A program made the translations under genes and the position numbers. Below, one piece after another: positions 3,762-62,245 of a stretch of DNA of 64,000 bases. Below the pieces are notes generated by a model. It was given only the letters and a program-made list of their open reading frames with translations. It had not been told where the DNA came from and did not search any database. Every line of letters begins with the position of its first letter. The stretch's first letter is position 1. Source of the stretch: Capsulimonas corticalis (GTDB lineage: Bacteria; Armatimonadota; Armatimonadia; Armatimonadales; Capsulimonadaceae); contig NZ_AP025739.1 in NCBI RefSeq assembly GCF_003574315.2, positions 6,572,001 to 6,636,000 on the forward strand. Direction: 5' to 3'.

Positions 3762-3855
3762 AAACGATCCGAAGGGCTCCGCGAAACCATTTGGCGCGCA
3801 CACCGTTACAGACGGTACCGATCATTGCCGCCGATCATGCCCAGGACAACACACA

Positions 3856-6507: not shown

Positions 6508-6525
6508 AAATAACAAAGGACCACC

Positions 6526-9192: not shown

Positions 9193-9196
9193 TTAG

Positions 9197-9220
9197 TTTT
9201 ATCAATCCTAATCGATAAAA
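9197..9220. promoter_or_regulatory. Inverted repeat, candidate operator upstream of the GH99-like gene
   Basis: TTTTATC (9197-9203) and GATAAAA (9214-9220) form perfect arms around 10 bases, just upstream of the -35 box at 9227. The core TATCAATCCTAATCGA (9200-9215) matches 13 of 16 positions of TATCAATCGCAATTGA at 28252-28267, inside the GH16 promoter. Similar arms occur at 21383-21405. No T-run follows and the stem is AT-rich, so a repressor or activator site is more likely than a terminator for the upstream array. Confidence 0.45.
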
Positions 9221-9226
9221 TACAAC

Positions 9227-9255
9227 TTGACAGCGTCAAACGGCAGTGTTATACT
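9227..9255 (+). promoter_or_regulatory. Near-consensus sigma-70 promoter for GH99-like gene
   Basis: TTGACA (9227-9232) and TATACT (9250-9255) are separated by exactly 17 bases. Transcription would start near 9262, leaving a leader of roughly 97 bases before the ATG at 9359. The 5' edge of the -35 lies 7 bases from the upstream inverted repeat. Confidence 0.75.
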
Positions 9256-9358
9256 GAGGCGTTACCAAAAGAGGTCCTCTCTCCAAATTGTGACATTCGC
9301 GTTAATTGCGATACAGATCAGAAACACGCAGCATTGACGCTGCAAGGAGAACTCTGTT

Positions 9359-10897
9359 ATGTCCTTACGATTCTCGTCCCTATTCTGGAAAAGCCTGTGC
9401 GTTCCCGCTGTCGCCGCCGCGCTGCTGGCTGGCGGAGGGAAACCGGCGGCGGCCCAGCCTTACGCCACTATCCTGTATGAAACATGGTCCAATCTGATCA
9501 TCGGGTCCAGCGGAACCGTTGGGAACGACGTCGCGGATATGATGACGGAGAACGGTTATACCGGCAGCTATAACTGGTGGGGAAAACCCGACTACGCGGC
9601 GACGCATGGGGACGGGACGATCAAGAATAACTATCTGTACTACTTCAATAACGACGCCAACCAGCCCAACACCGCGCTCATCGACTACCATGCCGATCTG
9701 CTCAGCCGCGCCGGCGTCGATTTTATCACCGTCGACTTCACCAACGGCGCCATCACGGAGATCGTCAAAGGATCGCAGGCGCTGTGCGCGCGCTTCGCGC
9801 AGCGCCGGGCGCAGGGCCTGCCAACGCCGCAAGTCGCCTTCTTCGTCAACACGCCGGCCACGCTGCAAACCGTGCATGACACGTTCTATAACGGGCAGTA
9901 TCCGTCGAGCCTCTTTTTCAACTACCTCGGCAAGCCGCTCGCCATGATCGCCACACCCAACACCGCACTCGGCGCGGGCGATCACAACCAGCCCTACGCG
10001 CCGACCGGCGGGATTTTCGACAGCTTCACCTGCCGCCACTGCTGGGGCTTGGACACCAGCGGCGCATTCTGGCAGTTCAAGGTCAGCGCAAACACGGCGC
10101 CGCCCGCCGCGTACTACAACGGTTCGCCGGAGCAGATGTGCGCCTCCTTCGCATGCCAGTCAAGCTATATGACCACCGACGGAACAAATCCGGATCCCGG
10201 CGCGCACGGCCGCAATAACGGCTCGTACTTCAATATCTACATGACTGCCGCCCAGCAGACGCATCCCGCCTTTACGTTTATCACGGGTTGGAACGAATGG
10301 GCGTCGATCAACTTCAACAACCCGCCCGCCGGCAAGTTCGTAGACGAATGGCGCGAAGGATACAGCAGCGACGCCGAACCGGAAGCCGCCACCGATCCAG
10401 GCTCCCATGGCTACCAGTACTACGACCTGATGGCGATGCAGATCGCGCGTCTCAAGGGGACGTTCCCGGTGCTCGACGGCCACTCCTATCAAATTGTCAA
10501 TCAGAACAGCGGCGAGTGCCTGGATGTCCCCGGCGGTACAAACGTCCACGGAACGCAGCTTCAGCAGTGGCCTCAAAACGGCGCCAGCGCCCAGCGATGG
10601 GTGTTCCACGATCTCGGCACGGGATTCTGGACGATCACCAATATTGGAAACGGGCTGGCGCTCGACGACTACAACTGGAGCACGACGCCCGGCGCGGCGG
10701 TCGACCAGTGGGACCTCAACAGCCTGGCGGTCCAGCAATGGAGCCTGCGCCCGGTCGGGAATGGTTACTGGAAGCTCTTCAACCGCAATAGCGCCATGTG
10801 TTTGAGCATTTCCGGCGCCTCTCTGAACAATGGCGCCCTCGCCACACAATGGACCGATAATGGAACTCCAGACCATAACTGGCAGTTCCAGCCGTAG
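9359..10897 (+). CDS. Secreted GH99/WbsX-like glycosidase with C-terminal ricin-type lectin domain
   Basis: 512 residues. The signal peptide runs to about residue 32 (PAAA|QPY). The N-terminal two thirds resemble the GH99/GH71-like fold used by WbsX-type proteins: an opening 'YATILYETWSNL', 'YNWWGKPDYAATH', a 'VDFITVDFTNG' strand, and near residue 307 FITGWNEWAS, close to the GWNEWAEG signature of those families. Residues about 373-512 form a ricin-B/CBM13-like domain with repeated 'GxCLDV', 'QxW' and 'NxxSxxCLSI' elements, predicted to bind polysaccharide. RBS AAGGAGA (9344-9350) sits 8 bases before the ATG. It stands alone behind its own promoter and before a GC-rich hairpin. An endo-mannosidase or other glycan-cleaving activity is plausible from the family; the exact substrate cannot be read from sequence. 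Confidence 0.8.
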   Translation: MSLRFSSLFWKSLCVPAVAAALLAGGGKPAAAQPYATILYETWSNLIIGSSGTVGNDVADMMTENGYTGSYNWWGKPDYAATHGDGTIKNNYLYYFNNDANQPNTALIDYHADLLSRAGVDFITVDFTNGAITEIVKGSQALCARFAQRRAQGLPTPQVAFFVNTPATLQTVHDTFYNGQYPSSLFFNYLGKPLAMIATPNTALGAGDHNQPYAPTGGIFDSFTCRHCWGLDTSGAFWQFKVSANTAPPAAYYNGSPEQMCASFACQSSYMTTDGTNPDPGAHGRNNGSYFNIYMTAAQQTHPAFTFITGWNEWASINFNNPPAGKFVDEWREGYSSDAEPEAATDPGSHGYQYYDLMAMQIARLKGTFPVLDGHSYQIVNQNSGECLDVPGGTNVHGTQLQQWPQNGASAQRWVFHDLGTGFWTITNIGNGLALDDYNWSTTPGAAVDQWDLNSLAVQQWSLRPVGNGYWKLFNRNSAMCLSISGASLNNGALATQWTDNGTPDHNWQFQP

Positions 10898-31242: not shown

Positions 31243-33573
31243 TTACATCTGCCTTATTTGCCGAAAACGTTGATAATTTGTGTTTGTATCCATTGTGATT
31301 GGATGCTTCGCGCCCAGAGTCTTCTCATAAATACTAAGACCGTGAATATAGTGCTGGTTCGCATCTTCATATCGGCCCTGACCCTCGTATATATTTGCAA
31401 GGGTAATAAGACTACTAGCGATGTCAGGATGGTCGTTAGCAAAAACACGTCTTCTAATCAAAAGCCCTTGTTCACAAAGTAGTTCTGCATCTTCATAACG
31501 CGCCTGATAGTAATAGAGCACAGACAGACAGTTTGCGCTATTAGCAGTTTCAGGGTGATTAATACCGATTCTTTCTTTTCGAATATTAAAAGCCTTCAGA
31601 TACATTACTTCGGCTTTACTATAATCTCCTTGACTAAAGTATACAGTTGCTAAAGTATTGACACTGTGAGCGATTTCTGGATAATTCAGCTCTATACTTT
31701 TTTCTTGAATAGACAAGGCTTCTAAAGCCATCATTTCGGCTTCAATATATTTATGTAATTTGATATACGAGAACGCCAAATTCGTCATGCATGTGGCAAT
31801 TTTTGAAATGTTACGTAGTGGCTGTTGCTTGTAAACATCCAATGCTTGCAAATAAAGAGGTTCAGCTCTTTCATACTTACCCTGCTTAGCAAACAATCCA
31901 CCCAAATTATTCATAGCAATCGCGACACTTGGGTTATTGCGCCAATATATTTTTTTATAAATACATAGAACTTCCTCATAAAGTGGTTCGGCTTTCTCGT
32001 AAAACCCTTCATCCTCGTAAAAAGCTGCTAGATTATTAACACTTGCAGCTACACCGAATTGATCAACATATTTACTATTCTTGTAAATATTAATAGCACA
32101 TAAATAAAGTTGCTCCACAATGGAATATTTAGCACGATCATGGAGATAATAAGCAGTGGAGTTTAGAAACTGCGCTGCTGATAAAAAAGAAAACTGATAT
32201 ATGAGTATATGATCAGAGCATATTATAGCATGAGGTAATAATCTTTCGCATATTCCCCATACCGAATAATCAGGTTTTGGGAAAGCAGCAGCTACAGCAA
32301 GTACAGATTTCTTAGCATATATACACCTCGTTTGTTCATCCATGCCATGCTGAATGACAGCTTGAACCAAACGATGAACATCGTAGGTACGCTCCTTCGT
32401 ATCGCGCTGAATCAGAGAGTAGCGCGCAAGGTGATCGAGCAACTCATCCATTAGCAGTGGATCTTCGTCATAATCCGTGAGCGCCGCTTCTACTGCTTGT
32501 CCTATTTCCGACGCTCCGAGCAGCACGAGTTCTTCTGGAATGCCATTGGGATTAAAAAAAGCGCTGACGCGGAGCAGTTCCGTCGCCGCTTCAGATTCTT
32601 GCTCAACAGCCTCGAAATTGAGAGACCATGTGGTGGCGACTGTCTTCTCGTAGGCTCCCGTTTCTGCTTTCGTATCTTGAAACAGCCGTATTCGGCGTTT
32701 GCGATAGCTTGCGAGATATGATTGGAAGGTGGATTGCTTTTCACAGAGATAGGCACCCGCCTGTTCCAGCGCCAGCGGCAGACAGCCCATCTCTTGGGCA
32801 AGTTCTAATGCCGCCTTCTGTTCCGCTTCATCTGCATCTAATCGGTCGGTCCTCTGGAGCAGAAATGCTACTGCTTCTTTCTCACTAAGCACCAATAAAA
32901 TCGTGGGATGGGGCAGGTTGATTGTGCCGAAGTGACGAGCGCGTGATGTGAGCAACAGGTGCCCCGCCAGATGCAGGGGCAGATACGCCGCCAATAAATC
33001 GGGGGTGTCGGCATTGTCGAGGATGAGCAGGTAGTCTGGCTTTTCGGTGAGCCAGCGTTTGACAGCTTCACGGACATGGCTAATCTCTTCGGCGTCTTTC
33101 TCAGGCAAATCAAGAAGAACGGCGATCCCACGGAAGGAAGAATTGAGAGCGGTTTCGGTATCAGCCTGCGCCCAGAGGATGGCGTGATACTGCTCTCGAT
33201 GTCGGTAGGCGTATTCGATTGCGGTTTGAGTTTTACCGACGCCGCCGAGCCCCGAAATGGCCTGGTTCTTCGCGACGTACGCCTGGGTTAGGGCTACTTT
33301 CTGCGTTGAAGCGAGAGTCCTTTCAAGGTTCGCGAGAATCTCCTCACGCCCCGTGAAGAACGGATTGGGAGGATATGGGACGTTCCATAGACGCCCGGGT
33401 TCCGAGAGGGCGGGAGAGGCAAGACGCGCGATCAAGGGCGCAAGGTCAACGCCAGCGGCTTGGGCTTGATTCAGATTGAGCGTGAAGTAGTTATTCTGTG
33501 TATTGCCGGTTCCACTTTGAATACCTTGGCCGCCGGAAATATGCGTAGGACCGTAATCGGGAGAATCGCTCAT
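31243..33573 (-). CDS. NLR-like NB-ARC/TPR protein with N-terminal RHIM-like amyloid motif
   Basis: 776 residues from ATG 33573 (AAAGG upstream). The N-terminus carries ISGGQGIQSGTGNTQNNYF (residues 12-30), a RHIM/PP-like amyloid motif of the BASS type. A NB-ARC STAND ATPase follows: P-loop GLGGVGKTQTA near 108, Walker B 'YLLILDNAD' near 180, 'HLLLTSRARHF' (sensor 1), 'LAQEMGCLPLALEQAGAYL' (GxP motif) and a winged-helix part with 'YDVHRLVQAVIQHGM'. Residues about 500-770 contain six or seven kinesin-light-chain-type TPRs of about 42 residues ('NNLAAFYEDEGFYEKAEPLYEE', 'NNLGGLFAKQGKYERAEPLY'). In such proteins the TPRs sense a ligand, NB-ARC oligomerises and the amyloid motif templates a partner effector. 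The TPR half is strikingly AT-rich (near 37% GC in sampled lines) beside the NB-ARC half. The cognate effector is probably the next gene upstream (33605-34006). Confidence 0.85.
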   Translation of the reverse strand: MSDSPDYGPTHISGGQGIQSGTGNTQNNYFTLNLNQAQAAGVDLAPLIARLASPALSEPGRLWNVPYPPNPFFTGREEILANLERTLASTQKVALTQAYVAKNQAISGLGGVGKTQTAIEYAYRHREQYHAILWAQADTETALNSSFRGIAVLLDLPEKDAEEISHVREAVKRWLTEKPDYLLILDNADTPDLLAAYLPLHLAGHLLLTSRARHFGTINLPHPTILLVLSEKEAVAFLLQRTDRLDADEAEQKAALELAQEMGCLPLALEQAGAYLCEKQSTFQSYLASYRKRRIRLFQDTKAETGAYEKTVATTWSLNFEAVEQESEAATELLRVSAFFNPNGIPEELVLLGASEIGQAVEAALTDYDEDPLLMDELLDHLARYSLIQRDTKERTYDVHRLVQAVIQHGMDEQTRCIYAKKSVLAVAAAFPKPDYSVWGICERLLPHAIICSDHILIYQFSFLSAAQFLNSTAYYLHDRAKYSIVEQLYLCAINIYKNSKYVDQFGVAASVNNLAAFYEDEGFYEKAEPLYEEVLCIYKKIYWRNNPSVAIAMNNLGGLFAKQGKYERAEPLYLQALDVYKQQPLRNISKIATCMTNLAFSYIKLHKYIEAEMMALEALSIQEKSIELNYPEIAHSVNTLATVYFSQGDYSKAEVMYLKAFNIRKERIGINHPETANSANCLSVLYYYQARYEDAELLCEQGLLIRRRVFANDHPDIASSLITLANIYEGQGRYEDANQHYIHGLSIYEKTLGAKHPITMDTNTNYQRFRQIRQM

Positions 33574-33604
33574 CGGGTAGATGCCTTTACCGCTCTCATT
33601 AGCT

Positions 33605-34006
33605 CTACGATTGAGAAGTTGGTGAAGCTCCGAAGGTGTTCGTCTGCGTATTGCCGTCGCCCACTTGATTACCTTGCCCGCCGGAGATGGCAACGTTGTA
33701 TTTGCCTTGCGCCGTGCCGGAGGGATCGGCGGCCGCGAGTAGCGCCTTGGCTTGCTTCAGAACTTCTTCGTTCTTATCTAGACCTGCTTGTAGAATAGCA
33801 TCCTTCAGGATTGCCTCATAAGCTTGGGGTTTCTTTTCGTGATGCTTCAGCGCGCTTTCCGCCTCTTCGTCGCCGGCGAAATGCTTGTGCAGGAGTTCTT
33901 TGAGGCTGGCGTAGGCGTTTTTTGCCGCCTCGCTGAGCGCTCCTTTCGCAAGCTCGGGGCCAGCGAACGCAAGAGCTGTGACAATGAGCGTACCTGGGTC
34001 CATCAT
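33605..34006 (-). CDS. Bell-like effector with C-terminal RHIM-like amyloid motif
   Basis: 133 residues from ATG 34006 (AAAGGA about 10 bases upstream; 34003 is also an ATG). The N-terminal ~100 residues open with MDPGTLIVTALAFAG and continue 'SEAAKNAYASLKELLHKHFAG', 'ALKHHEKKPQAYEAILKDAILQAG', an all-helical pattern I recognise as the Bell-type domain found with bacterial amyloid signalling motifs and compared to fungal HeLo/MLKL-like killers. The C-terminus has ISGGQGNQVGDGNTQTNTF, 14 of 19 residues identical to the NLR's N-terminal motif, including the Q-V-G RHIM-like core. It lies 31 bases upstream of the NLR gene on the same strand, hence one operon. Predicted role: cell-death or membrane-attacking effector triggered when the NLR seeds amyloid. 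The domain name rests on pattern recognition, not a search. Confidence 0.75.
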   Translation of the reverse strand: MMDPGTLIVTALAFAGPELAKGALSEAAKNAYASLKELLHKHFAGDEEAESALKHHEKKPQAYEAILKDAILQAGLDKNEEVLKQAKALLAAADPSGTAQGKYNVAISGGQGNQVGDGNTQTNTFGASPTSQS

Positions 34007-34199
34007 TAGAGAATATTCCTTTCGCAATTTTTATCTCTAGTTCCTTGGACGCCAAAGATTTTCCTTCATATCCATCTGATGATGCGTCATGAAAATACAC
34101 GGAAACCCGAAACGTTTCTCCCAGCCATCTCTCGAAGCCAATAGCGCTCCCCAGTATCTCAAGTAATAATTTTGAATGGGCGGCGCTTCGGAGGCATCC

Positions 34200-51844: not shown

Positions 51845-52047
51845 CCACCCCACGCTTCGCGCAGCCCTTGCAAACCCACCCCCGGCCTTTGGCCGACCCC
51901 TCCCGCCGACGGGAAGGGTTTGTAGGATTGCCTCTAACGGAAGGCGCCTGCGATAACACGCTCTGAAATAACCCTTCCCGTCGGCGGGAGGGGTCGGCCG
52001 AAGGCCGGGGGTGGGTTTGCAAGGACCGCACGAAGCGCCGGGGTGGG
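51845..52047. repeat. Large inverted repeat (two ~75-bp arms, 49-bp loop)
   Basis: The inner 55 bases 51866-51920 are the reverse complement of 51970-52024 with one mismatch; weaker complementarity extends outward (CCACCCC...CTTCG.GC) to about 51845 and 52047. Arms are C-rich on one side, G-rich on the other, with CCCCGGCC, GGCCGACCCC and CCCGCCGACGGG blocks. The loop contains the stop codon of the TIGR03790 gene. There is no transposase. It resembles non-autonomous MITE/REP-like intergenic repeats. As RNA it would form an extremely stable hairpin between the TIGR03790 and GH95 genes. Confidence 0.85.
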
Positions 52048-53625
52048 TTTGAACGCAAACCACTCCAAATTGAACAAATTCCCATCGCCGCCCACATAAA
52101 CCAGACACAGCGTATGCGCGCCCTTCACATGCTCGGTCAGTTCGCACGTTTGGGTCGTCCACGCCTGCCAGTTCCCGGTCGGCGGCGCAGGGCATGTTCC
52201 GATGAGTTTGCCGGTGGGGGTGTCCAGGCGCAATTCGATTTTGCCGCCCGAGCCCGCGCTCGCGACGCGGGCTTTGAACTGCGTCATGCCGGTGAAGTTG
52301 ACGCCTCGGTACACCGTGTAATCTCCATTGGAGATCGAGCCGATGTCCTGACCGCTTTCGCTGCAATTCTCTGTCTTGAGGCCGCCGTGGGAATCGGTAA
52401 ATTCCGACGCCTGGGTTGGAATGACGAGCTTTTGGCCGATGTAGGGAGCGCACAGCGGATCGCCGACGCAGACGCCTTCCCAGCCGATGTACTTTGTCCC
52501 CGAGTAAAAGCTCTCGGCCATCGTATACCCGGAGAGGTAATGGCTCAGGTCGAGCGTGGGAGACGAGGTGCCGTCGAGGATTGGTTCGCCGACATATCCT
52601 TGGCAGCAGGTCACGCCGTGCGCGATGAGGTCGGCGATCAGCGACTGACCGCCCGTGGTCGGCAGGAACGTTCGGCCACCGGTGGAGACTGCGGTGTCGG
52701 CCATGGAGCCTGGCAGGAATCGCAGGGACTGGTACGCCTGCGGATCGTAGTGGCTGTCATTGCTCCCATAGGAGAAGTAGCCGAGCAGGTCGGTTTTGTC
52801 GCCGACAAACTTCTGCGTCATCTCCGTGGTGTGAGGAATGCCGGTCGCCTCCAGAATATCGTTCATCCGAAGCATGTCGCCGAACCAATCGCCCCATGGC
52901 TCCTCGGTGGTGACATTCGTGCTGGGGACGACCAGCGGAAACTTTGTCTTATCGCCCAGGCCAAAATCCGGTTCGATATCGAACAGAATATCGCCTTGGA
53001 TATGTGTGCGCTCCGCCGTCAGGGCTTGGTCGACCAGGCCCATGGCGTCCGCCTGCGTGTAACCGTCCAGGCGCGTCACGAGATACCCGCCGAATTTCGC
53101 ATGAGTGAAGGGCTCGGACGCATGATAGTAGTGGTTCACCCACCCTGTCCCCACGGTTCCCGACCCTACCAGACTGGCCTTCACCGCATTGGGAAGCGTG
53201 GGATAATCGATGGCCGCCAGGTAACTGTCCAGCGACGGCATCTGCGGCCCCTGCCCGCCTTCCCGCTCGCCGGTCCCCGCGTCCCGAATCCGGATCGGAA
53301 CGCCCTTCGTCAGCACGATAAAATTGATATTCTTATGTTGCGCCAGATAGGCGCTCACGGGAGCGGCGATCTTCGCCGTGTAATCGTCGATCGAAATCGT
53401 CTCATCGTCGGTCTTCAGCGCGGAGTCCGCGCAGTGGATCGTGACAACATTGGTAATATGACGCTTCGCCTCATAGTCCTTTGCTACCGTCGTGGAGATC
53501 GGGCTATCGGCGTTATAGACGAGCAGCACTTCGCTCGATTTTCTTTGCGCGTAGGCCGCGCCGGATATGGCGATTGAGGCGAGAACAAACAGTGAAAAAA
53601 CGCGAACGGAGGACGTCATGAGCAT
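51934..53625 (-). CDS. Secreted TIGR03790-family protein with carbohydrate-binding-like domain
   Basis: 563 residues from ATG 53625 (AAAGG seven bases upstream; ATG 53619 is also possible). Signal peptide to about 26 (AAYA|QR). Residues about 30-400 follow the TIGR03790 pattern: 'SSEVLLVYNADSPISTTVAKDYEAKRHI', 'INFIVLTKGVPIRIRD', 'TRLDGYTQADAMGLVDQAL', 'GDILFDIEPD' and a 'GITCCQGYVGEP'-type segment; that family is exported and of unknown function. Residues about 405-525 look like a CBM6-type beta-sandwich ('DYTVYRGVNFTGMTQFKARVASAG', 'GKIELRLDTPTGKLIGTC'). The last ~35 residues (PALRAVLANPPPAFGRPLPP...) are encoded by the inverted repeat, so the original C-terminus was probably near 'LEWFAFKP'. 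It precedes GH95 on the same strand. Confidence 0.78.
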   Translation of the reverse strand: MLMTSSVRVFSLFVLASIAISGAAYAQRKSSEVLLVYNADSPISTTVAKDYEAKRHITNVVTIHCADSALKTDDETISIDDYTAKIAAPVSAYLAQHKNINFIVLTKGVPIRIRDAGTGEREGGQGPQMPSLDSYLAAIDYPTLPNAVKASLVGSGTVGTGWVNHYYHASEPFTHAKFGGYLVTRLDGYTQADAMGLVDQALTAERTHIQGDILFDIEPDFGLGDKTKFPLVVPSTNVTTEEPWGDWFGDMLRMNDILEATGIPHTTEMTQKFVGDKTDLLGYFSYGSNDSHYDPQAYQSLRFLPGSMADTAVSTGGRTFLPTTGGQSLIADLIAHGVTCCQGYVGEPILDGTSSPTLDLSHYLSGYTMAESFYSGTKYIGWEGVCVGDPLCAPYIGQKLVIPTQASEFTDSHGGLKTENCSESGQDIGSISNGDYTVYRGVNFTGMTQFKARVASAGSGGKIELRLDTPTGKLIGTCPAPPTGNWQAWTTQTCELTEHVKGAHTLCLVYVGGDGNLFNLEWFAFKPTPALRAVLANPPPAFGRPLPPTGRVISERVIAGAFR

Positions 53626-53654
53626 GGATCGGCCTTTCGATTACAGGGCGCAAA

Positions 53655-53680
53655 CTCTGTTTACCCTATGGTTTACAGAG
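53655..53680. promoter_or_regulatory. Imperfect palindrome upstream of the TIGR03790 gene
   Basis: CTCTGTTTACC (53655-53665) and GGTTTACAGAG (53670-53680) form a dyad with two internal mismatches, 30 bases upstream of the minus-strand start codon. It is a candidate operator; no clear -10/-35 pair is visible nearby. Confidence 0.35.
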
Positions 53681-53752
53681 ATTACGCCCCGCAGAGCCGA
53701 TTTCCTCCTTGATTCTCTTCCGTCTGGATTTTCGGGGCAACTTCAAGAACCG

Positions 53753-55948
53753 TTACGGGGTAAAGCCCACGTTGCCGGATCCGCTGGTCGTGAAGTTGGC
53801 GGAGGATGCGTTTTTGGTGTACGCCGGCTGCCCGGCGTTCAGGCCCTGAACGATGTCGTCGATGAACGCAGCATTGCCGTGCGCCGACGAGTCGATGACA
53901 ATGCCCGCCAGGCCCGGCGAAGCAATATTATTGTAGTAAATCCCCATATTGGTGCCGGAGAAGATGTCCATGCCGTCGAACATCGAGCCCTGGATCGTGT
54001 TGCCGCAGACCGTCACGTTGTTGACCGAAGTCGTCGTGCCGGTGACGCCGACGCCCATTCCGGGGTACTTGTTGCCATAGCCGAAGCTCCCGCCGCGCAG
54101 GACCGTGTTGCCTTCGATATATCCGGTGAGGAGCGAGCCTGCGGAGCCGTTGCCCGTGAATACTCCGATGCTGATCCCGTACTCCTTCACAGAATCCATG
54201 CACAGGTTGTTCGCCACGAAATCATTGGTCCCGCCATAGATTCCGATGTTGTTCGCCCACCAGGGAGCGACCACCGTGTTGTTCAGGACCGTGATATTAG
54301 TCATCTGCTGCGACGTCGAGTCGTCGTTGATCGCGATGCCGTCATCCCCCGTGCCGCGCACAAAATTGTTCTGCGCCGTCAGGTTGTTGCCGACATTGTT
54401 GGTGTTGCCGTTGTTCAGGTTGATCCCGTCCGCCCAGGTGCTGTCGACACGGCAGTTCTGCACGACGCCGTTCGTCCCGTCCGCCCAAACCCCTGCGCCT
54501 TCGTGCTGGATCCAGAGACTATCGATCAACCAGTTGCTGCCCTTGATATTGATCGCGCCGCCATTGCCGTCGCCCGCGCCGGGCGACAAAGCGACTCCGT
54601 CGATCGCGAAGTTCTTGAGCGTGCAGGAGTACGGTGAAAATACGTTGTTCGTTGAGCTTGCCGGTAGCGGCGGGTTGTAGTAGATGGTGCTGTACCACAT
54701 GCCGGCGCCCTGGATCGTAATCCCATTCGCGCTGAGCCCAGACGTCGTGTTGAGGTAGTAAGTCCCCTGCGGAATCCAAACGCTCTTGCCCTGGGATTGC
54801 GCGTCGTTGATACAGTTCTGGATCGCAGCCGTGCTATCCGAGCCGCTGTTGTTCGCCACCGCGCCATAAGTCGCAATGCTCAGCGAATTCGCCGGCTGAG
54901 TCAGCGCGGCCGGTGGAGCTTCCAGATCGACCACATCGATGTTGTAGTAGGACGCCGAGTTCGCCGAATCTTTCTCCAGTCGGATCGTGCTTCCGGCCGC
55001 GACCCCCGCGCCGGTGATGAACGCATGCGTCTCGTCCCAGAAGATATGTGGATTCCCAGCCGACGGTGATTGGTTGAAGCCGTCGTAGTTCGCGTCCGTC
55101 TCGTAAACCCAGGTCTGCTTGGAGTTGACGTTGATCGCCTGCCGGAACGTTCCGTTCACATAAAGATCGAGTGTGGACGTAACGCCGCCGCCGCCCGACG
55201 AATCTGGAATGGAATAACGAACATTGATCGCATTGATACTATGCCCGGTATTGTTGGTCCACTGCACGTACTGCCCGGTTGCCGCCAGATGCGTGTAGGC
55301 GTGTCCCGAGGCTTCCAACTGCGGACTGGAGAACTTGGTTGTCGGCGGCGCGGTCAGCGAGACCGTCGTGGCTCCGCCGCCCAGCGTCCCGCTCTCTCCT
55401 TCATACGAAACAAACGGCGTCGCCGCGCCGATTTGTACCGGAGTAATGAGCCATTGCTGGTTCGTGTTGGACAGATTGGCGTCCCACTGCCACACGACCG
55501 TCCCATTGGATGTCGATCCCGTATTGTCGAGAGCCTTGCCGCTGGATGCGCAGACCAGCTGATAGTAGCCGCCTCCCGCGCTGTTGATCGTCCACGCCTG
55601 ATTGCTGTTGGTCGTGCTGGACGTATACTGCTTCACAGGGTCGCCATTGGTCGTCGAGCCGCCGTTGTCGAGCGCCATTCCGCTCGTCGCCGAAATTAAC
55701 TGCCACTTCCCGCCGGATAGGCTGATAAATCGCCACTGCTGATTCGAATTGCCCGGCACATTGGTCCATTGCCCCATGTTCGAGCTCAGCGAGGACGAGC
55801 CTCCGTTGTCCAGATATTCGCCGCCCGTCTTGCACTGAAGACGATACAAAGCCCCGGAGCTAAACTGCGCCCGCGCCGGCGTCGCCCAAAACGCCGTGGC
55901 CACGGCGAGCGCGCCGGCGCTCACCAAGATTGCGATAGTAGTCTTCAA
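53753..55948 (-). CDS. Secreted ricin-CBM-beta-helix enzyme, GH87-like (alpha-1,3-glucanase/mycodextranase type)
   Basis: 731 residues from ATG 55948; signal peptide to about 27 (PARA|QF). Residues about 28-168 are a ricin-B-like lectin domain with three NQQW-type repeats. Residues about 175-345 are a CBM35/CBM6-like sandwich ('YEGESGTLGGGATTV', 'ATGQYVQWTNNTGHSINAINVRYSIPD'). From about 350 a right-handed parallel beta-helix begins ('ATYGAVANNSGSDSTAAIQNCIND', 'VWIPQGTYYLN', 'TIQGAGMWYSTIYY'). It includes 'WADGINLNNG', 'VRGTGDDGIAIND' and 'ANNIGIYGGTND', which match my memory of GH87 enzymes and carry candidate catalytic aspartates. GH87 enzymes hydrolyse alpha-1,3-glucan of fungal walls. 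Own consensus promoter at 56128-56156. Pectate-lyase or GH28 assignment is the alternative. Confidence 0.75.
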   Translation of the reverse strand: MKTTIAILVSAGALAVATAFWATPARAQFSSGALYRLQCKTGGEYLDNGGSSSLSSNMGQWTNVPGNSNQQWRFISLSGGKWQLISATSGMALDNGGSTTNGDPVKQYTSSTTNSNQAWTINSAGGGYYQLVCASSGKALDNTGSTSNGTVVWQWDANLSNTNQQWLITPVQIGAATPFVSYEGESGTLGGGATTVSLTAPPTTKFSSPQLEASGHAYTHLAATGQYVQWTNNTGHSINAINVRYSIPDSSGGGGVTSTLDLYVNGTFRQAINVNSKQTWVYETDANYDGFNQSPSAGNPHIFWDETHAFITGAGVAAGSTIRLEKDSANSASYYNIDVVDLEAPPAALTQPANSLSIATYGAVANNSGSDSTAAIQNCINDAQSQGKSVWIPQGTYYLNTTSGLSANGITIQGAGMWYSTIYYNPPLPASSTNNVFSPYSCTLKNFAIDGVALSPGAGDGNGGAINIKGSNWLIDSLWIQHEGAGVWADGTNGVVQNCRVDSTWADGINLNNGNTNNVGNNLTAQNNFVRGTGDDGIAINDDSTSQQMTNITVLNNTVVAPWWANNIGIYGGTNDFVANNLCMDSVKEYGISIGVFTGNGSAGSLLTGYIEGNTVLRGGSFGYGNKYPGMGVGVTGTTTSVNNVTVCGNTIQGSMFDGMDIFSGTNMGIYYNNIASPGLAGIVIDSSAHGNAAFIDDIVQGLNAGQPAYTKNASSANFTTSGSGNVGFTP

Positions 55949-56127
55949 AACAACACTCCTCCATCGGATAATTCGAACCCGGCCTCACGATCATCGCCTG
56001 CCCAAACGCTTGCATTCCACTGAATTGCAATAATATCAACAAAACACATCTCAAGAATCCGCCTGAACTCCGCCGAAAGAGATATAATACTCATCGGACA
56101 ACAACGACAACCTTCCGGGACACGCCC

Positions 56128-56156
56128 ATTATACCCTAGTGTTTTTATCGTGTCAA
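56128..56156 (-). promoter_or_regulatory. Perfect consensus promoter for the GH87-like gene
   Basis: On the minus strand TTGACA (56156-56151), 17 bases, TATAAT (56133-56128). The leader to the ATG at 55948 would be about 173 bases, long enough for post-transcriptional control, and contains no obvious gene. Confidence 0.75.
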
Positions 56157-56176
56157 GAAATAATATTGGACTCTCC

Positions 56177-56461
56177 ATGACCACCATCACGCTGGACCTG
56201 ACCACAGCCGAACTGGCGCTGCTCCATCGCCGCGCCGACGCCGACGGCGTCACCATCATCGCGGTTTTGCACACCCTCATCGCCCAGCTCGCACCGCAAG
56301 CGCCGGCGGAGCCGCCGCGCGATTTCGGCGCCGCCCTCAGCGCCCTGCGCGGCGAACCCATGAGCGACGATCCCGAGGAGATCGCCGAACGCGAGCGGGA
56401 AAACACGGAGATGCAAAACAACATCGCGCGCTGGCGCGCGGAGCAGGACTTAGAAAAGTGA
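56177..56461 (+). CDS. Small antitoxin-sized hypothetical protein
   Basis: 94 residues from ATG 56177; no strong ribosome-binding site. The first third reads TTITLDLTTAELALLHRRAD followed by a helix (GVTIIAVLHTLIAQLAP), reminiscent of a ribbon-helix-helix strand-helix-helix N-terminus. The rest is acidic and helical ('SDDPEEIAERERENTEMQNNIARWRAEQDLE'). That layout (DNA-binding N-terminus, extended acidic tail) is common in type II antitoxins, but no toxin gene is adjacent: the next gene is a convergent ATPase and the divergent neighbour is the GH87-like enzyme. Treat function as unknown. Confidence 0.5.
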   Translation: MTTITLDLTTAELALLHRRADADGVTIIAVLHTLIAQLAPQAPAEPPRDFGAALSALRGEPMSDDPEEIAERERENTEMQNNIARWRAEQDLEK

Positions 56462-56476
56462 GAAGTCAATCGAAAG

Positions 56477-58975
56477 CTATTTTGTTACCTTGCCTCGATG
56501 ATAAACCACTTGCCGTGCATTCGCCGATGCAACAAAATGCGCTATATTACGCGGTGAGACTTCCACACCGTTAGGTATCTGTTTGCAGCCTATGAATTCG
56601 ATTGCGTTTTCGGGTTTAATATTGTTGATGTAATAATTTGAAATTTTTACATTCTGAAACGTGCTGCTTTTGAAATGAATGGGACGCATGCCATCAATCA
56701 CCACATTCCGCAATTGCGCGTTTGAAAAATCAATTCGTACCGAATTCGCCTTCGTATACTCGTTGAGTGGATTTTTCAAATCGAAACTCGGCCTTTCTGC
56801 TACAGGGCGTATGAGTTGGATATTCTCAAAGGGACCAACATATGTATAAACATAACTATCGGATGAATCCGGAGGGGTGCTAAATTCACAGTCAATTAAT
56901 TTTGAATTACGCCAGTCCTTCATTCCAGAAAGTGAATCTCGGTAAAAAGAACAACGAATAAACGTTGTGTGATCTATGTAACAGCTATTTTCCCAAGAAA
57001 AGGCATCCATTAGTCTCCCAAACGCAAACCTAGGACTTCTGAGTTTACGTGGATAATTCCTCAAATCGATATCCACAACTTTCATATCCGAAAGATCCAC
57101 TGCCCTAATATATCGGGCATTAATGCACCATTGAGTACAGTTGGTCTTGAATAAATCCCAATCAGACACCTGACGCATATCGCTAAACGCGGTGTTTTCG
57201 TTGCTGGCGTAATAATATCGGTTCTGCTCAAAATTACCGAACATCCACATCAATAATGCAATCACTCCGCCGATTAATAACAATGCCGCATATATCCATG
57301 TAAAGGAGATCAATCCCGCTGAGAAGTAATGCGGGATAGCGAGCGTAACTAGGCGCATACGTTTTCTGCGGTCAACAGACAAACGTGAAAGTCGGAATCT
57401 AAACTTTCCCATACTGTAATTCAGACGCGCCGCTAAGAAAATACCGCTTAGAGCCGATGTACAGAGAATTACGATTGCTGCTGCGAGCATAACGAGCGTG
57501 TAGAGGTAGATTAAACATGGACTGATAGCAAAAGTACGAAAAAGTAGAAACATGGCGATCAGCCACACACCAGAGAGCAGTGGAAGGTTCGTAAATTTGA
57601 GAACGAGAAAGTCGGAATCCACTGCGGTAGGATCAATTCCTGCATTTTCCGCATATCGTATCTGCCGAACAGACCATCGCTTCACTCGCGCGGAAATAAG
57701 CGGCTCATATGATCCCTTAAATAGCTTCATAACGACAAGATTAAGTTTGCGGACGAAAAGACTGTCTGGCAATAAATCTGAAATTAACGTATGCTGTCCA
57801 AATGTTTGAAAAATTTGATCGTGATAAGGTACATAACATAGGATCGAGCCATTGATCGTCTTGGAGATAGTCTGTTCATACATTGCCGCAAGATGGGGAA
57901 TCTTCTGATTGGAACGGACACGGTTTATGATAAGATGAATAATAGGTTGGAATTTGGACTCCGCCAGGGCGGATTTCAGGTGGTCGAGGAGGGTCAGCGT
58001 GCCAGAGAACGTAACTATATCAGGTTCATTGACCAGAATCGTCTGGTCGGCAAGAGCTGCACTCGCCGTCGTAAGACGGTCGATGCCACAAAAGCAATCG
58101 AGGATCACGCAATCAAAGCGATGGCGACTGACTAATATTCGAATTTGTTCGCGTAGTAGAAAGATTAAATGTTCTACGGTAATGGACGGATCTAGTGTAG
58201 GATGTTCCTGAGGACGTGCAGAAGGTATGAAATAGTATTGATCCTTCACCATGATAAGATCTTTCAATGGAACAGCTTCGAGACTTGCTCCACCCAGCAG
58301 ATGCGCAGTTGTCAGATATGTTCGCCCTGGCCTAACGCAAGACGAAAAAAGTCCTGTTGCACCTCGGTTACTAAAGTCCAAGTCAATGACGAGAACACGT
58401 GCATTAGCCTTGCAAATCACATTGGCGATGTTAGTCGATATTGTGGTCTTCCCGCATCCTCCTTTTCCACTTGTCACCGCGATTACAGGGACGTTAATCG
58501 GGGATACTTCACTGATGTGTGGCATGCCAGGCAACCATTGAATCGGCACCTTTTTAAGGAACTCCTCACTGTGCCTTGTGGAATTGAGCTTTTCCTCCCC
58601 CGTTGCCTTTCGGTTCCAATAATATGCAATTGCGATAAATAGGGCGATGAACAAACCCAGACTATCTACTGCAAAAACACTGAATTTCAGGATCTCGATA
58701 CTGCCTGTGACACTGGTATGTGAGAGACTAAAGCAGCAGAGAACGAACGTCAGGACAATCATTGTCAGGCAAATGAAATAGAATTGCTTCAGAGGAGTTT
58801 GTTCCGCCAACCATTGACTGAGACCACGAAGGGAGCTCAATCCCGTGACAGCAGCCTCCATAATATCACGTAGGGATTGAGGCTTTGTTGATTCGCTTGC
58901 CGTAGGTTCAGCCTTAGTTTGTAGATCTGATGGATTAGATAAAGTTGGATCATTTTGTTCATGTTTGATAGGCAT
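56477..58975 (-). CDS. Membrane-anchored MinD/ParA-like ATPase with pentapeptide-like C-terminal domain
   Basis: 832 residues from ATG 58975, behind a fine GAGGAGA. After a polar 50-residue tail, two helices ('FYFICLTMIVLTFVLCCFSL', 'FAVDSLGLFIALFIAIAYYW') lead to a MinD/ParA-type ATPase (about 155-420). It has the deviant Walker A GKGGCGKTT near 169, 'RVLVIDLDFSNRGATGLF' (Walker A' side), 'FDCVILDCFCGID' (Walker B region) and 'LIINRVRSNQ' (nucleotide specificity). Around 465-580 come about four more helices. The C-terminal 220 residues hold irregular A(D/N)LxN-like repeats ('IDFSNAQLRNVVIDGMRPIHFKSSTFQNVKISNY'), as in pentapeptide-repeat sheets. Composition is about 45% GC, well below most neighbours, suggesting transfer. 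I know no named family with this layout. An anchored spatial-positioning or capsule-export-type switch is speculation. Confidence 0.72.
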   Translation of the reverse strand: MPIKHEQNDPTLSNPSDLQTKAEPTASESTKPQSLRDIMEAAVTGLSSLRGLSQWLAEQTPLKQFYFICLTMIVLTFVLCCFSLSHTSVTGSIEILKFSVFAVDSLGLFIALFIAIAYYWNRKATGEEKLNSTRHSEEFLKKVPIQWLPGMPHISEVSPINVPVIAVTSGKGGCGKTTISTNIANVICKANARVLVIDLDFSNRGATGLFSSCVRPGRTYLTTAHLLGGASLEAVPLKDLIMVKDQYYFIPSARPQEHPTLDPSITVEHLIFLLREQIRILVSRHRFDCVILDCFCGIDRLTTASAALADQTILVNEPDIVTFSGTLTLLDHLKSALAESKFQPIIHLIINRVRSNQKIPHLAAMYEQTISKTINGSILCYVPYHDQIFQTFGQHTLISDLLPDSLFVRKLNLVVMKLFKGSYEPLISARVKRWSVRQIRYAENAGIDPTAVDSDFLVLKFTNLPLLSGVWLIAMFLLFRTFAISPCLIYLYTLVMLAAAIVILCTSALSGIFLAARLNYSMGKFRFRLSRLSVDRRKRMRLVTLAIPHYFSAGLISFTWIYAALLLIGGVIALLMWMFGNFEQNRYYYASNENTAFSDMRQVSDWDLFKTNCTQWCINARYIRAVDLSDMKVVDIDLRNYPRKLRSPRFAFGRLMDAFSWENSCYIDHTTFIRCSFYRDSLSGMKDWRNSKLIDCEFSTPPDSSDSYVYTYVGPFENIQLIRPVAERPSFDLKNPLNEYTKANSVRIDFSNAQLRNVVIDGMRPIHFKSSTFQNVKISNYYINNIKPENAIEFIGCKQIPNGVEVSPRNIAHFVASANARQVVYHRGKVTK

Positions 58976-59423
58976 AAAACTCTCCTCACGATATCATATT
59001 GGATTGTAATTGCTAAACGCCCAGAAATAGTTTTATTAGGTCAGGCGCTTTGTTAGTCGTGTGAACAATTCGTTCGACCTCCACTATCGTCAGAAATTAG
59101 AAACAGCTAATGATAATATCGATGTATCGGTCATTTGTAATCAATATGATTGATTGCTTTTTGATTAAATATTAAGCAGGCTTAAAAACAGAGATTGAGT
59201 AATTAATATCAATAACAACATTAACTATCGAATAATATTAAATAAAACTTGAATTTAAGTTAGTAAGGGTTTATACTTAATGTCCTTAGATATAGTTACG
59301 CTTGATAGGACATTATACTACCATTAGTCGTTGATAGTATAATATTTCGGAGATTTCACTAAACCAAATCTTGATTATTTCCAAAATGTATAACACGGCG
59401 CCGATGATTTCCCGTCCCGAGAG
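58976..59423. other. AT-rich intergenic region
   Basis: About 450 bases of clearly AT-rich DNA with no open frame of note. It contains an ATTATACT/AGTATAAT dyad (59312-59319 and 59336-59343) and several TTAATAT/AATATTA runs. It lies between the low-GC ATPase gene and a return to GC-rich coding sequence. No tRNA, attachment-site repeat or mobile-element end was recognised. Confidence 0.6.
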
Positions 59424-59462
59424 TTGTCCTTATTATTGAACGCACATCGCGTGAAAGGACAA
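59424..59462 (+). promoter_or_regulatory. Possible Shine-Dalgarno-sequestering hairpin before the SDR gene
   Basis: TTGTCCTT (59424-59431) is the exact complement of AAGGACAA (59455-59462). The second arm contains the AAAGGA ribosome-binding site of the SDR gene (ATG 59471). Folding would hide the site; a 23-base loop makes the hairpin modestly stable. Confidence 0.35.
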
Positions 59463-59470
59463 TTTTCCAA

Positions 59471-60214
59471 ATGCAGCTTGAGAACAAGAATGTGGTCGTC
59501 ATCGGCGGGAGCCGGGGACTGGGACGAGTGATCGCGCAGACGGCGCAGCAGGAAGGCGCTCGGGTTTTGGTGGTGGCGCGGGGCGAGGATTCGCTGGCGG
59601 AGGTTGAGCGCGATTTGCCGGGGGTTCAGACCCTGACGGCGGATGCGACGCGGGAGGAGACGCCAGGGAAGGTCTTCCGGGCGCTTCGGCCGGATGTGCT
59701 GGTGGTGTGCGGCGGGGCGATGCCTCCGTTGTCGCCGATCCACGAGCAGACGTGGGAGGAGTTCTCACGGAACTGGGATTCCGACGTGCGGTCGTCGTTT
59801 CTCTTCTGCCAGGCCGCGCTGAAGCTGCCGCTCGCGCCGGGCGCGGTGATCATCCTGATCTCCAGCGGCGCGGCGGTGGCGGGATCAGCGATCTCCGGAG
59901 GATACGCGGGATCGAAGCGCACGCAGATGTTTATGGCGGATTACTGCCAGAGCGAATCCGAACGCGCCGATCTGGGTCTGCGATTTGTGGCGATCGCGCC
60001 GGGGCGCATTATGGCTGAGACGGAGTTGGGCAAGGCGGCGATTGCGGGGTATGCGGCGCGCCTGGGGATCTCGGAGGCGGATTTCATTCAAAGCATGGGA
60101 TTCCCGCCGACACTGCAGCAGGTCGCGGACGCGTTGGTCGAGGCCGCGACGACGCCTGGAGCCAAGTCGGGGAATGTCTTCCTCGTTTCTGGGAAGGGAG
60201 TGGAGCCGTTTTGA
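59471..60214 (+). CDS. SDR-family NAD(P)-dependent oxidoreductase
   Basis: 247 residues. Rossmann-fold short-chain dehydrogenase: cofactor loop VVVIGGSRGLGRVIAQ at the N-terminus (G-x-x-x-G-x-G), 'LTADAT' acidic strand end, 'VLVVCGGAMPP' in place of the usual NNAG, catalytic Ser in 'VIILISSGAAV' and the Y-x-x-x-K pair in GYAGSKRTQMF, and 'APGRIMAETE' after it. Cytosolic. The TGA stop overlaps the TTG of the sigma-factor gene, so the two are translationally linked. Oxidoreductases encoded beside SnoaL-tailed ECF sigma factors are a known pairing, so this enzyme may be the sigma factor's target or signal source. Substrate unknown. Confidence 0.9.
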   Translation: MQLENKNVVVIGGSRGLGRVIAQTAQQEGARVLVVARGEDSLAEVERDLPGVQTLTADATREETPGKVFRALRPDVLVVCGGAMPPLSPIHEQTWEEFSRNWDSDVRSSFLFCQAALKLPLAPGAVIILISSGAAVAGSAISGGYAGSKRTQMFMADYCQSESERADLGLRFVAIAPGRIMAETELGKAAIAGYAARLGISEADFIQSMGFPPTLQQVADALVEAATTPGAKSGNVFLVSGKGVEPF

Positions 60215-61239
60215 ACGCTATGACCGATCGGGACGCGTTTCAGGAGATGGCGGAACGGTATCGCGGCGCCCTGCATCTGCATTGCTACCGGATGCTGGGA
60301 TCGCTCCACGACGCCGAGGACTGCGTGCAGGAAACCTACGTGCGCGCCTGGTCGGCATTCGGCAGTTACGCGGGGATGGGGTCTCCGCGTAACTGGCTCT
60401 ACAAGATCGCGACGAATACATGCCTCAACGCCCTGGCCCGCCGCGACCGTTCGCGGCGGGTCCTGCCCGAAGCGATTGGGCCGGCGTCGCGCGGGCTTCC
60501 CGAGGGGGAGCCGTCGGGCGAGATTCCCTGGCTGGAGCCATATCCCGATCTCTTATTGGCCCGCGTTCCAGACACGGCGCCGGGACCTCACGCGCGCTAT
60601 GAGATGCGCGAGGCGGTGGAGTTCGCATTTGTCGCCGCCATCCAGTACCTTCCCGCGCGCCAGCGCGCCGCCCTGCTGCTCTGTGATGTCCTGGGCTGGT
60701 CGGCGGCGGAGACGGCGGCGCTGCTCGAAGGATCCGTGGCCTCGGTCAACAGCGCCTTGCAGCGCGCCCGCGCGACGCTCGCCAAAGCTATGCCGGGCGC
60801 TCGCCCCGTGGCGCCAGACAGCACGCAAAGCCGATTGCTCGATCGTTATATGCAGGCGTGGGAGAGCAAGGATGTCGCGGGTTTCGCCGCTCTGCTCAAA
60901 GAAAACGCCGTCCTGAGCATGCCGCCGTGGATCCAGTGGTATGTCGGACGCAACGCCATTCGTGAATTCTTTGACTGGGCCTGGAATTCCGAGAATTACG
61001 GAGGTTTCCAACTGACTCCGACTTCGGCGAACGCGAGCCCTGCGTTCGCTCTGTACAGCCGTACTTATGAAGAGAACGCGCCATGGCGTTCGCACTCCAT
61101 TCAGATGCTGACTCTGGAGGATGACGCCATCGCCAAAATCATCCTATTCGTCAAGCCGCTCGGGCCCACGCTCTTTCCCGCGTTCGGCCTGCGCGATCAC
61201 GCGCCATTTGCCAGCGAGGAACGAGAGCGGGTATCATAA
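60211..61239 (+). CDS. ECF sigma-70 factor with SnoaL/NTF2-like C-terminal domain (SigX5/TIGR02960-like)
   Basis: 342 residues from TTG 60211, which overlaps the SDR stop (TTGA); ATG 60220 is an alternative start. Region sigma2 is clear ('ERYRGALHLHCYRMLGSLHDAEDCVQETYVRAW', 'GSPRNWLYKIATNTCLNAL'), as is sigma4 ('AIQYLPARQRAALLLCDVLGWSAAETAALLEGSVASVNSALQRARATL'). From about residue 210 to 335 a SnoaL/NTF2-like domain follows ('LLDRYMQAWESKDVAGFAALLKENAVLSMPPWIQWYVGRNAIREFF'). In such factors the C-terminal domain replaces a separate anti-sigma factor and may bind a small molecule. No anti-sigma gene is adjacent. The coupled SDR gene is the best regulatory partner. Confidence 0.9.
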   Translation: MNAMTDRDAFQEMAERYRGALHLHCYRMLGSLHDAEDCVQETYVRAWSAFGSYAGMGSPRNWLYKIATNTCLNALARRDRSRRVLPEAIGPASRGLPEGEPSGEIPWLEPYPDLLLARVPDTAPGPHARYEMREAVEFAFVAAIQYLPARQRAALLLCDVLGWSAAETAALLEGSVASVNSALQRARATLAKAMPGARPVAPDSTQSRLLDRYMQAWESKDVAGFAALLKENAVLSMPPWIQWYVGRNAIREFFDWAWNSENYGGFQLTPTSANASPAFALYSRTYEENAPWRSHSIQMLTLEDDAIAKIILFVKPLGPTLFPAFGLRDHAPFASEERERVS

Positions 61240-61246
61240 TTTCACC

Positions 61247-62245
61247 ATGCCACTCCTCGAAGTCACCAATCTCACCAAGCATTACCCACTCACTCGCCAG
61301 ACCGGGCCGTTCACGCATGTGATCGATCAGGTGCGCGCCGTGGACGGGGTCGATCTGACCCTGAACCCGGCGGAGACGCTTGGATTGGTCGGGGAATCGG
61401 GGTGCGGGAAGTCGACGCTGGGCCGGTGCATTCTGCGCCTGATCGAGCCGACAGGCGGAACCGTGGTCTTCTCGGGTGAGGACGTGCTGCGCTGGCCCCG
61501 CGAAACTCTGCGGCGCAATCGGACGCAGATGCAGATCGTATTTCAGGATCCGTTCGCGTCGCTGGATCCACGGCAGAACGTCGGCGCAATCCTCGCCGAG
61601 CCGCTGCTGGCGCATAATATCGTCCCAAAATCCGAAGTCAAAGCGGAAGTGTCCCGGCTGCTGGGGCTGGTCGGACTGCCGGCCGAATCGGTGTCTCGTT
61701 ATCCCCATGAGTTCAGCGGCGGCCAGAGGCAGCGCATCGGCATCGCGCGCGCGCTCGCGCTGCGCCCGAAGCTGATCGTCGCCGACGAGCCGGTTTCAGC
61801 GCTCGACGTCTCGATCCGCGCGCAAATTTTAGATCTCTTTCAGAAAGTCCAGCGCGAAATGGGCGTCGCGCTGATCTTCATCGCGCACGACCTGGGCGCG
61901 GTGCGCCAGGTGAGCGACCGCGTCGCTGTCATGTACCTGGGCAAAATCGTGGAGATCGCCGAAGCGAACGCGCTCTACGATAATCCCCGCCACCCCTACA
62001 CCCGCGCCCTGCTCGCCGCGATCCCCAGCATCGACGGCGTCAAGGCCAATACCCCCAAAGTCGAAGGCGACGTCCCCTCACCCATCGACCTCCCGTCCGG
62101 CTGCCGCTTCCGCACCCGCTGCCCGTTCGCCGAAGCGATCTGCGCCGAACAAGAGCCCCCGCTCGCGGCGTTCGACGGCGGGGAGGCAGGCCACGCGTCC
62201 GCCTGTCACTTCGCGGCGACGCTGCCGGTGCTGGAAGTAGCGTAG
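61247..62245 (+). CDS. Peptide-type ABC transporter ATP-binding protein (OppF/DppF-like)
   Basis: 332 residues from ATG 61247, eight bases after the sigma-factor stop; no strong ribosome-binding site. Walker A GESGCGKSTLGR near 48, Q-loop 'MQIVFQDPFASLDPRQ', signature FSGGQRQRIGIARALALRPK near 155, Walker B LIVADEPVSALDVS, H-loop 'LIFIAHDLGAVRQVSDRVAVMYLGKIVE'. The end holds the oligopeptide-transporter tail ('PHPYTRALLAAIPSI'-like, 'GCRFRTRCPFAEAICAEQEPPL' with four cysteines including GCxFxxRCPFA, typical of OppD/OppF/DppF). No permease or binding-protein gene is present in the window, so it must work with partners elsewhere. Placement after the sigma factor may be chance or co-regulation. 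Confidence 0.9.
   Translation: MPLLEVTNLTKHYPLTRQTGPFTHVIDQVRAVDGVDLTLNPAETLGLVGESGCGKSTLGRCILRLIEPTGGTVVFSGEDVLRWPRETLRRNRTQMQIVFQDPFASLDPRQNVGAILAEPLLAHNIVPKSEVKAEVSRLLGLVGLPAESVSRYPHEFSGGQRQRIGIARALALRPKLIVADEPVSALDVSIRAQILDLFQKVQREMGVALIFIAHDLGAVRQVSDRVAVMYLGKIVEIAEANALYDNPRHPYTRALLAAIPSIDGVKANTPKVEGDVPSPIDLPSGCRFRTRCPFAEAICAEQEPPLAAFDGGEAGHASACHFAATLPVLEVA

Follow-up and report, generated by a model that had tools for sequence, protein, structure and literature searches.

ATPases of the MinD/ParA type are usually soluble proteins, and their contact with the membrane is made via short amphipathic helices. BY-kinases are not known to carry the KGG signature lysine. As outlined in one published account (PMC5035731), BY-kinases such as Wzc, CapA/CapB and TkmA/PtkA comprise a MinD-like enzyme and an activator with two transmembrane helices (2TM), which are fused or split depending on the lineage. 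MinD/ParA-like domains have additionally been described as effector domains of NTP-dependent conflict systems, where they are predicted to be inactive (Kaur et al. 2020, PMC7159879). Here, we describe an intact MinD/ParA-fold ATPase situated between membrane helices, encoded by Capsulimonas corticalis within a 64,000-nucleotide stretch of its chromosome, the whole of which is referred to as the window.

The gene is an 832-codon open reading frame with an ATG start, lying exactly where the original prediction had placed it. It was found to be a single-copy gene in the single-contig 7.65-Mb genome, in which the one other match was a 39-residue similarity confined to the P-loop. Pfam searches with the 832-residue protein retrieved a MinD/ParA-type ATPase only (AAA_31, 1.4e-15; CbiA, 3.9e-14), and the AF2 model of the full-length chain, with a mean pLDDT of 62, was mostly between 72 and 94 per 10-residue block in this domain and poor in the tail. 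When the model was searched with Foldseek, the first five hits were all FleN, FlhG or MinD structures (E 1.5e-12 to 1e-11, TMt 0.70-0.80), led by FleN at E 1.5e-12 and TMt 0.80; the best hits were 5j1j (FleN), 4rz3 (FlhG) and 4v02 (MinD). The expectation of a MinD/ParA-like ATPase was thus borne out by both Pfam and the modelled fold. In keeping with the SIMIBI class, to which MinD, FlhG (FleN) and ParA belong, the protein shares their fold, a deviant Walker A motif (KGGxGK[ST], here GKGGCGKTT) with its signature lysine, D200 and the Walker B D293. Sequence alignments demonstrated that the Walker A motif, D198, D200 and D293 are intact in the window ATPase and invariant among its relatives.

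Membrane helices were called with a hydrophobicity scan and a Hessa-type insertion-energy scan, both of which agreed on five (Table 1). The two predicted N-terminal helices were clear, whilst only three C-terminal helices were identified in place of the anticipated four or so, the same number being present in all three long homologues described below. The loop between TM4 and TM5 carries ten basic residues and a single acidic one, so that under the positive-inside rule this loop, and likewise the ATPase, is predicted to be cytosolic; with an odd number of helices following a cytosolic ATPase, the tail would lie outside. An ATPase domain positioned outside the cytosol, which would have spoken against the original prediction, is not what the charges indicate.

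Table 1. Coordinates of the ATPase gene, its parts and the inserted segment in the window, and of the separate 2TM genes at three homologous loci.
Feature	Position	Strand	Basis or remark
Whole gene, 832 aa: 2 TM, MinD/ParA ATPase, 3 TM, tail	56477..58975	-	ORF, Pfam, TM analysis, AF2 model
TM1, residues 65-84	58724..58783	-	Hessa-type scan; apparent insertion energy -3.2
TM2, residues 102-120	58616..58672	-	Hessa-type scan; TM1 and TM2 correspond to a stand-alone 2TM gene of the homologues
MinD/ParA-type ATPase domain, residues about 160-425	57701..58498	-	Pfam, AF2 pLDDT, Foldseek
Deviant Walker A GKGGCGKTT, residues 170-178, signature lysine K171	58442..58468	-	Alignments
TM3, residues 466-484	57524..57580	-	Hessa-type scan; found in 3/3 long homologues
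TM4, residues 487-509	57449..57517	-	Hessa-type scan
TM4-TM5 loop, residues 512-550: 10 K/R, 1 D/E	57326..57442	-	Hydrophobicity/charge scan
TM5, residues 561-579	57239..57295	-	Hessa-type scan; single hydrophobic span in all homologues
Tail, residues 590-832	56480..57208	-	Predicted outside; weakly pentapeptide-like; no W-rich C-terminal region, unlike the homologues
Inserted segment: gene and AT-rich upstream region	about 56450..59395	.	Absent from same-genus genome
2TM gene, L102	8970-9362	-	3 bp upstream of ATPase gene
2TM gene, L103	9623-10087		Overlaps ATPase gene start at 10074
2TM gene, L106	7696-8637		Overlaps ATPase gene start at 8634

Homologues were sought with a DNA pattern tuned on the window protein (KGGxGK[ST], followed at a fixed distance by D-x-D-x-x-x-R-G), which matched at 15 places in genome contigs, two of them in true relatives, namely the Deltaproteobacteria MAG SZUA-265 (L090) and the Zixibacteria MAG bin72 (L091). 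Whole-genome searches returned an E value of 2.7e-109 over residues 39-723 for the Zixibacteria genome and of 2.2e-75 for SZUA-265, and searching the phylum of the latter added one further genome (G565) at 8.9e-45. Three homologues with the same order of parts were therefore found, all in other phyla: one in the Zixibacteria MAG and two in genomes of a single deltaproteobacterial phylum, with identities over the alignment of 38, 31 and 20%. The family is thus represented by four full-length members, of which the Zixibacteria gene is masked over 100 bases close to its 3' end.

Members are rare, with a frequency of 1/291 genomes in the window's own phylum, where no relative with the same layout was found, and of 1/132 and 2/379 in the other two phylum searches; sampling further around G293, G565 and G291 yielded no additional members. 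Single-protein scans of viral contigs and genome contigs returned nothing, tblastn against plasmids and phages matched the ATPase region only, and a general Walker A scan of viral contigs retrieved only ordinary ParA/MinD proteins. None of these scans turned up a phage, plasmid or viral relative sharing the layout, nor was a description of the 2TM-ATPase-3TM arrangement encountered in the open-licence literature searched.

The main gene of each of the three long homologues begins shortly upstream of the ATPase, and a separate gene that precedes or overlaps it encodes the N-terminal helix pair. Once this gene is counted, every homologue has five transmembrane helices, and the window protein is the fused form of the 2TM module and the ATPase. 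The 2TM modules of the relatives have a similarity of only 9-15% to that of the window protein, hence their equivalence rests on layout and position. More distant ATPases from a Chloroflexi genome (L088) and a Neomarinimicrobiota genome (L092) also have an overlapping 2TM gene, and at another Chloroflexi locus (L104) a 2TM segment ends a large surface protein that precedes an ATPase relative. At this locus (positions 2943-10649, in a MAG), the surface protein comprises 2230 residues with many STATVGDALGLGLPRT-like repeats, and the ATPase relative, a soluble protein, follows about 25 nt after it. The 2TM gene of L106 opens with a TIR/SEFIR domain (TIR_2, 5.7e-16; SEFIR, 1.1e-12), which is absent from the window protein and present in this one of the four members only. 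No ATG, GTG or TTG precedes the domain, and the TIR-2TM gene probably starts at a CTG codon.

The phylogeny of 35 ATPase domains was inferred by maximum likelihood. The four long proteins formed one clade (support 99/95), which was joined by three Chloroflexi ATPases (99/98), one of these sister proteins having the same overlapping 2TM gene, and then by L092 and a T6SS-linked ATPase, L089 (99/93). At L089 (positions 1907-4583), the gene for this MinD-like protein of the sister group lies directly after a fused TssB/TssC sheath gene in the type VI secretion cluster of a Desulfobacteraceae MAG. The four-member clade and its sister ATPases were separate from the MinD, FlhG-like and ParA-like proteins. 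Unlike these, the window family has integral helices flanking the ATPase on both sides, and the window protein scored 61.8 bits against the MinD equivalog model TIGR01968, for which the cut-off is 212.9.

The family also resembles known conflict proteins, both those of Kaur et al. (PMC7159879) and the KGGVGR ATPases, in that a MinD/ParA-like domain is found within modular proteins and, in one relative, a TIR domain is present. However, K171, K176 and the Asp residues are intact in the window protein, unlike in the predicted-inactive domains of PMC7159879, and its motif is KGGCGKT, where the KGGVGR ATPases have GR in place of GK; against the model of the latter (NF047398) it scored 39.9 bits, with a cut-off of 90. 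The PADLOC model PDC-M28B weakly matched the P-loop region (35 bits, confined to 51 residues) and was rejected as a family label, as it matches all 14 of 14 control genomes and the proteins at L005-L006 are of the KGGVGR type. The one at L006 (positions 1456-3261), which comes from a genome within the same order, is a KGGVGR-motif ATPase fused to TPR-like repeats and lies directly downstream of a 283-aa gene.

The tail of the window protein had been described as a pentapeptide-like sheet. Its match to Pentapeptide_4 was 15.2 bits (E 0.023), below the cut-off of 38, and a period of five residues was not significant (p 0.51). The tail of L106, on the other hand, has a strong period of five (p 0.001) and canonical pentapeptide repeats at this position (PF00805, 2.5e-48), although hhalign did not join the two tails (probability 0.4%). 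The pentapeptide character is thus supported by position in one homologue and not by the window sequence. Over 78 residues, the early part of the tail does resemble the Zixibacteria homologue, at E 1e-6 in a two-sequence comparison, and an AF2 model of the tail alone was unusable (mean pLDDT 36.6). A W-rich C-terminal region present in all three long homologues is absent from the window copy.

The gene was found to be AT-rich (GC 0.438) beside an AT-rich upstream gap (495 nt, 32.7% GC), as had been noted originally, and its GC3 of 0.432 contrasts with 0.75-0.80 in neighbouring genes. In a genome of the same genus, the flanking genes occur in order on one contig at 73-84% identity, with matches to window positions 51985-55960, 56114-56447, 59401-61109 and 61239-62013. 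There, the small gene on one side and the SDR-side match on the other are about 45 nt apart, the ATPase gene and the AT-rich region being missing, which delimits a clean insertion of 2.95 kb with breakpoints near 56450 and 59395. No target duplication, terminal inverted repeats or tRNA were found at the insertion. Given the composition of the gene and its absence across the phylum, insertion in this lineage is much likelier than loss from the other genome. The joined flanks and foreign codon composition uphold the suggestion that the gene had been acquired, and support a recent, lineage-specific insertion by lateral transfer. The small gene (56150-56461, +, 103 aa) is kept in the same-genus genome, its last codons having been altered by the insertion at about 56450, and a protein with a ricin-lectin domain and an alpha-1,3-glucanase-type beta-helix (53753-55948, -) adjoins the insertion site.

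Elsewhere in the window, an 816-aa NB-ARC and TPR (STAND-type) protein is encoded at 31243-33693 (-). The GC content of its gene falls from 0.53-0.55 in the first 1200 bases to 0.33-0.44 in the remainder, such that the TPR half looks foreign or recombined. Just upstream (33605-34027, -) lies a gene for a 140-aa protein with a weak match to the effector-associated domain EAD10 (20.4 vs 24.1 bits), in which the stretch SGGQGNQVGDGNTQTN resembles SGGQGIQSGTGNTQNN of the STAND protein.

The split 2TM gene, the single TIR fusion and the rarity of relatives point to the window protein probably being an envelope-sensing switch and not a cell-division protein. We tentatively favour a laterally acquired, membrane-integral ATPase switch with an exchangeable output, most likely in envelope-facing sensing of conflict or stress, over the other readings considered. 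The ATPase is tied to the membrane by the 2TM module and the three further helices, and ATP binding may drive a sandwich dimerisation of the ParA/MinD type. Through the helices, such dimerisation could be coupled to both the outer tail and the 2TM module, and an envelope event would then control the nucleotide state and vice versa. If the 2TM module bears a TIR/SEFIR domain, the TIR domains would be brought together on dimerisation, and a suicide or signalling effector would thereby be activated; lacking such a domain, the window copy would instead target the membrane itself or a partner that is not linked to it. This function is inferred from a single TIR linkage. The conflict reading draws on that fusion in one of four members, the sporadic distribution and lateral transfer; against it, the remaining members have no TIR domain and the TIR-2TM gene has no ATG, GTG or TTG start before the domain. 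The idea of a conflict protein, raised at the outset, is accordingly backed by one TIR/SEFIR-2TM homologue and not by linkage, as no linked effector or defence gene was found at the window locus.

Two other explanations appear unlikely, to an equal degree. In the first, the ATPase would be a spatial organiser or polar anchor that positions cargo or a secretion or surface complex at the membrane, its helices replacing an amphipathic anchor, by analogy to FlhG/FleN, MinD or the ParA-like protein of a T6SS cluster. The nearest solved folds (FleN/FlhG and MinD) and the locations of related ATPases directly downstream of the sheath gene (L089) and after the 2230-aa surface protein (L104) are consistent with this role; however, a protein with five integral helices would not readily oscillate or form DNA-based gradients, no cargo gene occurs in the inserted segment, and the distribution is sporadic. 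The gene may otherwise be a decaying passenger, acquired, cut at its 3' end during insertion and no longer functional. With about 27 nt separating the stop codon from the breakpoint, the W-rich region seen in the three homologues may have been lost on insertion, yet 832 codons remain open, with catalytic motifs, helices and invariant residues intact.

Regulation of exopolysaccharide or capsule of the BY-kinase type is improbable. The organisation does resemble that of BY-kinases, whose MinD-fold P-loop enzyme is either fused to its 2TM activator or encoded by a gene of its own (PMC5035731), and it was this analogy of layout that survived from the suggestion of a capsule-type regulator. Nonetheless, the window protein is not a BY-kinase: it scored 31.2 bits against TIGR01007 (cut-off 108.05), possesses the KGG signature lysine, extra helices (TM3-5) and an outer tail, and its TM1-TM2 loop of about 17 residues (from 84 to 102) is not a large outer loop and leaves no room for a Wzz domain, no Wzz match being present in Pfam. 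Neither was a Tyr-rich tail seen, nor a polysaccharide gene in the inserted segment. Least probable is an error of frame or assembly behind the N-terminal fusion, with two genes in reality, as the three long homologues all have: the genome is a single contig, the frame is uninterrupted by stops, and translation from a start codon downstream of TM2 would in any case still give an operon.

Returning to the ATPase switch, a bolder version, which we consider rather unlikely though somewhat less so than the organiser and the passenger, is that these proteins form an undescribed family of transmembrane immune or stress receptors, in which a solenoid-like outer sensor acts through the membrane on a MinD/ParA-type ATPase, and interchangeable effectors such as TIR are delivered by a detachable 2TM adaptor. 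The occurrence of fused and split forms makes the partner of the ATPase obvious, and an integral-membrane clade with a coupled 2TM adaptor, once bearing a TIR domain, would add transmembrane signalling, and possibly immunity, to the MinD/ParA fold.
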